Position numbers and translations under genes: made by a program
Part shown: positions 917-1,113 of the stretch, piece after piece
Numbering within the stretch: position 1 is the first letter of the stretch
Layout of the letters: each line of letters opens with the position of its first letter
NCBI RefSeq assembly: GCF_004916905.1
Contig: NZ_SDLV01000003.1
Coordinates: 186,001-250,000, forward strand
Source: Chryseobacterium candidae
GTDB lineage: Bacteria; Bacteroidota; Bacteroidia; Flavobacteriales; Weeksellaceae
Reading direction: 5' to 3'
Length of the DNA stretch: 64,000 nucleotides
Notes under the pieces: model-generated
Told to the model about the DNA's origin: nothing
Database searches by the model: none
Seen by the model: the letters and a program-made list of their open reading frames with translations, nothing else

Positions 917-942
917 CCCTTTGCAGAAAAGTCAGCAAAGGG
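917..942 (-). terminator. Terminator-like hairpin, likely riboswitch expression platform
   Basis: An 8-bp perfect inverted repeat (CCCTTTGC / GCAAAGGG, 10-nt loop) lies between the riboswitch aptamer and the receptor start codon. On the minus strand it is followed by TAAAATTTT, a weak U-rich run. Its place downstream of the aptamer fits a transcription-termination switch that turns the receptor gene off when SAM is abundant. That mode of action is inferred. Confidence 0.6.
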
Positions 943-985
943 CATCGATAAATACGACAAACCAAATGCTTATTTTTCCTTAAAA

Positions 986-1066
986 GGCTGAATGTAACAC
1001 CTTGCCCCACGAGGTAGGTTGTTAAGATTTCACAGGGTCAGTTCCCTCCATCTTTCTTTATAAGCC
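986..1066 (-). promoter_or_regulatory. SAM-I (S-box) type riboswitch aptamer
   Basis: Read on the minus strand, the segment shows the S-box core in order: CTTATAAAGA, GATGGAGGGAACTGACCC, TGTGAAATCTTAACAACC and AAGGTGTTACATTC. P2 can form from AAGAT and ATCTT, with an inner GGG/CCC pair, and GGA/GAA at the kink-turn position. P3 can form from ACCT/AGGT. A short P1 forms from GGCT (1066-1063) and AGCC (989-986). The P4 arm is short or absent, so a SAM-I/IV-like variant is possible. The aptamer lies about 100 nt upstream of the SusC-like gene and starts a few bases after the predicted transcription start. Confidence 0.82.
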
Positions 1067-1082
1067 GATCGAAATATGATTG

Positions 1083-1113
1083 CAAAGCTAAAAACTTTTA
1101 GTCTACAAAACAA
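1083..1113 (-). promoter_or_regulatory. Promoter of the riboswitch/SusC transcript
   Basis: On the minus strand a -7 element TAGCTTTG (1090-1083) matches the Bacteroidetes consensus TAnnTTTG exactly. A TTG at 1113-1111 sits 20 nt upstream, the expected -33 spacing. Transcription would start near 1076, just ahead of the riboswitch. Confidence 0.65.

Follow-up and report, generated by a model that had tools for sequence, protein, structure and literature searches.

A SAM-I riboswitch and a predicted sulfur-regulon operator precede a SusC/SusD importer gene pair in Chryseobacterium

What does an outer-membrane importer carry when its gene follows a leader that resembles a sensor of S-adenosylmethionine (SAM)? 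Many SusC/SusD substrates are unknown, and they are usually guessed from adjacent glycan enzymes. An earlier note on a stretch of Chryseobacterium candidae DNA, made from its letters, had placed a SAM-I riboswitch before a SusC-type receptor gene and predicted that the receptor takes up a sulfur- or methionine-containing ligand and is shut off when SAM is plentiful. That whole stretch, hereafter the window, comprises 64,000 nucleotides (G000:C40:186001-250000) of a 4.69 Mb genome in 64 contigs. The leader and its gene lie on the minus strand.

The receptor gene (883-1) began with an ATG at 883 and ran off the window as far as G000:C40:183950, and the operon was read from the whole genome. The complete SusC protein (977 amino acids) scored 776.8 bits against TIGR04056, the SusC/RagA-type TonB-dependent receptor model (cut-off 368.25), and 63.3 bits against the signature TIGR04057 (cut-off 46.2), confirming the type of receptor first read there. 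The gene did not stand alone, however: susD (497 amino acids) followed directly, outside the window, so that the switch precedes a SusC/SusD pair, and the next gene lay on the opposite strand. The SusD protein carried both SusD domains (PF14322, 65.3 bits; PF07980, 62.5 bits) and was not of the starch-binding type (NF033071, 48.6 bits against a cut-off of 725). In these family assignments, TIGR04056 for SusC and PF07980 with PF14322 for SusD, the pair is like the known SusC/SusD and RagA/RagB importers; it differs from them in being preceded by a SAM switch and by a DNA dyad linked to sulfur. Among proteins of solved structure, the best relatives of SusC were RagA (366 bits) and then a SusC homologue (356 bits). 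The closest solved relatives of SusD, 3snx and 3lew, bear generic deposit names only, and naming the ligand from such relatives was dropped as uninformative. We take 3snx to be BT_1439 of Bacteroides thetaiotaomicron. A mutant in this SusD-like protein, BT1439, is reported to grow slowly, and the protein has been linked to vancomycin uptake (PMC9758874).

A search with Rfam matched RF00162, the SAM-I (S-box) aptamer, at 1066-967 with 66.9 bits against a cut-off of 44.4 (E 2.1e-13; model positions 1-108 of 108). Nothing else in the 64-kb window reached an Rfam gathering score, and the proposed SAM-clan aptamer was thus borne out at significant score. Upstream lies a predicted promoter (1113-1083), which we take to be of the Bacteroidota type: TTG at 1113-1111, 20 nt, then TAGCTTTG at 1090-1083. 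The pattern TAnnTTTG was present at all 75 loci from named Chryseobacterium genomes. A sigma-70 scan, designed for promoters of a different type, missed this one and gave nothing useful on the minus strand; it was dropped as promoter evidence. Downstream of the aptamer came a terminator-like hairpin, so that promoter, S-box core and hairpin were all present in the order first read. The fold of the whole leader had a z score of -3.35, and none of 200 shuffled sequences folded as well. The span first read as the leader (917-1113) cuts through the dyad, which extends over 1120-1100.

The genome contains three SAM-I copies, RS1 to RS3, of which RS3 is the copy before susC/susD. RS1 precedes a methionine biosynthesis operon with metX-like, homoserine dehydrogenase-like and metZ-like genes, two metH-like parts and a metF-like gene; metX and metZ were tested against their families and the other genes were named by eye. 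RS2 (L006, G000:C49:181921-182026; 78.2 bits) precedes genes for a non-SusC TonB receptor (809 amino acids from the likely ATG) and an APC amino-acid permease. The sulfur-linked dyad overlaps the -7 element and the first aptamer bases of the RS2 leader.

How regularly does the switch accompany the importer? SAM-I was found in all 60 sampled genomes of the genus, and a match of the RS3 class, defined by a length of 96-100 nt and a score of 61-69.5 bits, in 44 of them, our own included. When all these loci were read, every one of the 44 matches was followed by SusC (969-982 amino acids) and SusD (497-511 amino acids); at one of them (L045) the SusC frame was split into 815 and 157 amino acids. 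The SusD orthologue was not found in any of the 16 genomes without RS3: at E 1e-20 the search was empty in 13, and in the other three it recovered nothing closer than relatives of 28-36% identity. Both positive controls for this search were recovered, at 81 and 84% identity. Across the 60 genomes, aptamer and gene pair were present or absent together.

The leader was also found before orthologous receptors elsewhere, where the earlier note had suggested looking for it. The best 80 of 120 SusD relatives from named genomes comprised 75 from Chryseobacterium, which included the closest (up to 98% identity), two from Elizabethkingia, one from Sphingobacterium and two from Olivibacter. All 75 Chryseobacterium loci carried the aptamer as judged by a 5'-core pattern with at most three mismatches, which is a pattern and not an Rfam match. 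With Rfam, SAM-I was found before susC at both Elizabethkingia loci (64.1 and 63.5 bits) and both Olivibacter loci (78.4 and 80.3 bits); the single Sphingobacterium orthologue had none within 3 kb around its susC start, even at E 1. Within the genus, 44 of 44 switches of this class are followed by SusC and SusD, and outside it SAM-I stands, by Rfam, before four of five orthologous pairs. The named-genome set overlaps the set of 60, so the two series of counts are not independent. When up to ten candidates were scored per listed genome in 148 genomes of the class, a SusD match at E 1e-100 occurred in the window's own genome only. The distribution is therefore patchy, and the SusD family may perhaps have spread by transfer.

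In a sample of the phylum, 86 of 99 genomes had SAM-I at E 0.001. Seventy of these matches were examined as loci (30 delivered and 40 chosen), and 64 had a methionine biosynthesis gene within the fetched stretch, MetH-like genes being widely found downstream. Two (L318 and L334) had another SusC gene followed by a SusD-like gene, with 29-31% identity to the RS3 SusC where aligned. Of the remaining four, one stood before a gene resembling MetE (by eye), and the genes after the other three were of other kinds or unclear. Within this phylum sample a SAM-I match is seldom followed by SusC/SusD, but the pairs that do follow one are of more than one kind. The SAM-I cores of L332 and L334, both from G130, read GAGAGACAGGCTC where the RS3 core reads GAGGGAACTGACCC, and are possible variant aptamers; one precedes ATP-grasp-like, luciferase-like and APC permease-like genes (by eye), the other another SusC/SusD pair.

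An alignment of the 44 leaders provided the anatomy of the switch. Long stretches of the aptamer were invariant in it, and the closing helix P1 was 100% paired across the leaders. Folding gave two mutually exclusive structures. In the first (ON), an antiterminator hairpin at 970-934, composed of AGCA/UGCU, GG/CC and AUCR/YGAU, draws its strands from P1 (3' strand) and from the terminator-like hairpin (5' arm). The cells of the antiterminator were paired in 93.2% of cases, against 59.4% for the best slid version, and its covariation score was 0.130 against 0.089 in shuffled alignments (reached by 0 of 500); pairs changed on both sides (reached by 165 of 500 shuffles) and further pair types (452 of 500) did not exceed the shuffles. 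In nascent RNA lacking the 3' arm of the terminator-like hairpin, the AGC/GCU pairs formed in every leader except L063, which used another register, and the AUCR/YGAU core formed in 43 of 44. In the second structure (OFF), P1 is kept and the hairpin at 943-916 (GCCCUUUGC...GCAAAGGGU, -14.6 kcal/mol) forms. Here 96.4% of cells were paired, with four pairs changed on both sides, a number reached by 3 of 500 shuffles; by covariation score 114 of 500 shuffles did as well, and by further pair types 221 of 500. For the finished RNA of the 37 main leaders, those with a strong hairpin, OFF averaged -26.1 kcal/mol and ON -12.2 kcal/mol. Since OFF is far stabler once the RNA is complete, switching would need to occur during transcription.

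In the classical SAM-I attenuator, the 3' strand of P1 is common to aptamer and antiterminator. The RS3 leader shares this feature and the full-length aptamer with RF00162 riboswitches in general; it differs in its target, which is SusC/SusD here and methionine biosynthesis at the 64 phylum loci. When SAM is scarce, the nascent leader would form the antiterminator and susCD would be expressed; when SAM is bound, P1 would keep its 3' strand and the OFF hairpin would form. It is most likely that SAM turns the SusC/SusD pair off, in the predicted folds by termination, by closing of the start region, or by both.

The leaders were not uniform in the features that bear on this choice. The OFF stem had eight or nine of its nine pairs in 37 of 44 leaders (-6.4 to -20.2 kcal/mol) and was weak in seven (four to seven pairs; 0 to -5.1 kcal/mol). 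A predicted long-range helix of the OFF state would join 962-949 to 908-894, the latter lying 11-25 nt upstream of the start codon. Output might be purely translational in all leaders, with the OFF fold closing the stretch before the start and the hairpin forming the inner part of that closure. Several predictions agree with this. Of the 44 leaders, 18 can form all 14 pairs of the long-range helix and 32 can form at least 12; the last 25 nt are predicted to be less accessible in OFF than in ON in 31 of 37 main leaders and in all seven others; and in the seven weak-hairpin leaders the strand at the OFF 5' arm (UUUGCUGU or near; overlapping in L042) pairs near the start over 8-11 bp, G-U allowed, with a partner ending 11-16 nt before the ATG. 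Against this reading, the same count, made without a chance control, gives 4-8 bp in the main leaders. Against it also stands Elizabethkingia, where the hairpin is kept and its tail, AATTTTTTT, consists of two A and seven T, much like the usual form of an intrinsic terminator, as does the distance of the hairpin in our leader, which ends about 32 nt before the ATG. In Chryseobacterium the tails of the main leaders had five to nine T in 12 nt, interrupted, with a longest run of three to six, and termination is therefore not certain. A terminator scan did not list the 943-916 hairpin, probably because of the interrupted T run; both sites that it reported in 800-1320 were the promoter dyad, read on either strand. 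We regard purely translational output throughout as possible, though rather unlikely. In the reading that we favour, the OFF hairpin would in most leaders be terminator-like and accompanied by the predicted helix to the stretch before the start codon; in the seven others, the hairpin being weak, its 5'-arm region would pair with the start region instead.

The second element of the leader is a 21-nt dyad at 1120-1100, with half-sites AGTCTAC and GTAGACT around TTGTTTT, lying over the -33 element and upstream of the predicted transcript start. We predict from its conservation and recurrence that it is the operator of a regulator of sulfur status. It was perfect and the only match in the window at two or fewer mismatches; by chance a mean of 0.10 was expected, and 10 of 100 shuffled windows had one. 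Over the 75 Chryseobacterium loci, mean conservation was 0.99 in the 21 dyad positions, against 0.70 in the preceding 25 nt and 0.94 in the -7 element, and the dyad was perfect in 61.

Elsewhere in the genome, a perfect dyad occurred at the start of a gene for a peroxiredoxin with a 1-Cys C-terminal domain (C41; L090 near 6757). Copies with one mismatch were found in the RS2 leader, before the gene of a TonB receptor resembling that of RS2 (C6), just before the start of a gene for a small NIL-domain protein (PF09383; C19, L093:5983-6336), and at C12 and C52, the C52 type having no clear sulfur link; a copy with two mismatches followed an Rrf2 gene (C7). The RS2-like receptor at L091:5536-8313 has 925 amino acids, with the dyad 82 nt before its start and no SAM-I match there. 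The NIL domain PF09383 also occurs at the end of MetN. Near L092 11282, two dyads with one and two mismatches lie about 440-580 nt upstream of a SusC-like frame of 130 amino acids, which may be a disrupted receptor gene belonging to this regulon.

Ten further genomes were scanned for the dyad at one mismatch or fewer, with genes named by similarity and by eye. It stood at the peroxiredoxin gene in all ten, five of which lack the SusC/SusD pair, and before susC in all five that have RS3. The RS2 leader carried it in five genomes, and it lay before the C6-like receptor gene in four, before the NIL gene in four, before the metN operon in four, and between divergent kbl-like and cupin-like genes in four. 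Counts were compared with those of the reversed pattern: at one mismatch or fewer, one set of five genomes had 27 dyads against 13 and the other set 14 against 12, and at two or fewer our own genome had 15 against 24. The idea that every match is an operator was rejected, since two-mismatch sites were no commoner than the reversed control and some one-mismatch sites (those between kbl-like and cupin-like genes, the C52 type) have no clear sulfur link. Dyad counts alone are weak evidence; conserved locations carry the argument.

Two of these locations concern sulfur directly. The methionine transporter gene metN was present in 57 of 60 genus genomes, which removed an initial idea that it might be anticorrelated with the SusC/SusD pair. 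Variants of the dyad (0-4 mismatches) lay before metNIQ in all 38 genomes checked of these 57: at 19 of 20 loci with three mismatches or fewer, the site of G026 falling beyond the fetched flank and being seen in another scan, and at 18 of 18 loci under a lax limit of four, where our own site has three. Measured from a fixed point in metN, the sites lay near -350, -830 or -1375, and in our own genome an EamA gene intervenes. Our own MetI and MetQ scored above their family cut-offs; MetN, at 448.8 against 499.7, scored below.

The second location is beside a gene for an Rrf2 regulator (TIGR00738, 108.8 bits; cut-off 73.3), whose orthologue was found in all 14 genomes tested at 88-100% identity. 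In 13 of them a dyad with two or three mismatches followed the Rrf2 stop codon by 24-26 nt, and the next genes were cysH-cysD in four genomes and TauE in nine (families tested on single examples); in G031 the Rrf2 gene had no dyad and neither cysH-cysD nor TauE next to it. The shared motif thus precedes genes of sulfur uptake and assimilation at conserved places, not by an excess in count. The Rrf2 protein encoded beside the dyad variant is probably the regulator, and would bind the dyad and let the promoter fire when sulfur is short. Like CymR and IscR it belongs to the Rrf2 family, and in 4 of 14 genomes it precedes sulfate assimilation genes; it differs in that its scores lie far below the cut-offs of both the CymR model (NF047409, 62.0 bits against 195) and the IscR model (72.3 bits against 207.55). 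A second Rrf2 paralogue (L352-L359) heads cysH-cysD in eight of nine tested genomes with RS3 and in none of five without.

These observations bear on the cargo. The dyad recurs at metNIQ, at the RS2 receptor operon and in the Rrf2/cysHD/TauE neighbourhood, and for that reason we predict a sulfur or methionine compound, so that the ligand class proposed in the earlier note is supported and strengthened at the level of sequence. Two unrelated sensors would tie the pair to sulfur and methionine supply, which is most simply explained if it imports a methionine source across the outer membrane. The cargo would probably be free methionine, methionine-containing peptides or a related organosulfur compound, brought across the outer membrane and then taken in by MetNIQ or other inner-membrane carriers. 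The main alternative is that the switch is real and the cargo serves methionine synthesis without containing sulfur, for example a corrinoid for MetH or another cofactor. SusD-like proteins are not confined to glycans, and the first SAM-I switch of our genome is followed by the MetH-like methionine synthase genes noted above, both of which would suit a cofactor. Against this, a cobalamin riboswitch would be the expected control of a corrinoid importer, and dyads before metNIQ and near cysH-cysD and TauE are a sulfur signal; we consider a sulfur-free cargo unlikely. It is likely, in our judgement, that the SAM-I riboswitch and the upstream sulfur-regulon operator jointly control this SusC/SusD importer, probably of a methionine source.

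Could the dyad instead be mere promoter architecture, or an RNA or DNA hairpin, with no operator function? It overlaps the -33 element here and the -7 element in the RS2 leader, the terminator scan listed it on both strands, and genome counts at two mismatches do not exceed the reversed control. Its half-sites are nevertheless more conserved than the -7 element, it lies outside the predicted transcript, and it is found again at orthologous positions ahead of metNIQ and of the genes for the peroxiredoxin, the NIL-domain protein and TonB receptors. We therefore think this explanation quite improbable and retain the operator. That the aptamer is a relic which no longer acts is hardly credible: RS3 has the lowest score of the three SAM-I copies and a short P4, but long stretches of it are invariant in 44 leaders and its presence tracks that of the pair.

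SAM-I and SusC/SusD are each of a known kind, and within the literature searched (titles and beginnings of abstracts, subscription journals being thinly covered, so that absence is unproven) no paper showed the two combined and sharing a sulfur dyad. The main text of PMC3766115, the paper most likely to cover SAM-I with SusC/SusD, contains neither 'TonB' nor 'outer membrane', and the part of its table 2 examined names Bacteroidaceae as the one group of the phylum. Methionine regulons of Proteobacteria under MetJ, MetR and SahR, as treated in the main text of PMC4239095, are similar in that the MetJ targets include metNIQ and a component of a B12 transporter, and differ in their regulators. The words TonB, outer membrane, Bacteroidetes and Rrf2 do not occur in that main text. 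In the same searched literature we found no described counterpart of a dyad-marked sulfur regulon in this bacterial group.

An evenly balanced proposition is that the pair is a dedicated importer of methionine or methionine peptides under two stacked sensors, an undescribed Rrf2-type regulator acting on DNA and SAM-I acting on RNA, with an output that has shifted within the genus, some leaders using a terminator-like hairpin and others closing the start region directly. For a SusC/SusD pair without helpful neighbours, two independent sulfur signals would name the class of cargo, from which a short list of compounds follows. The dyad would also offer a way to find more members of the sulfur regulon in this group of bacteria.
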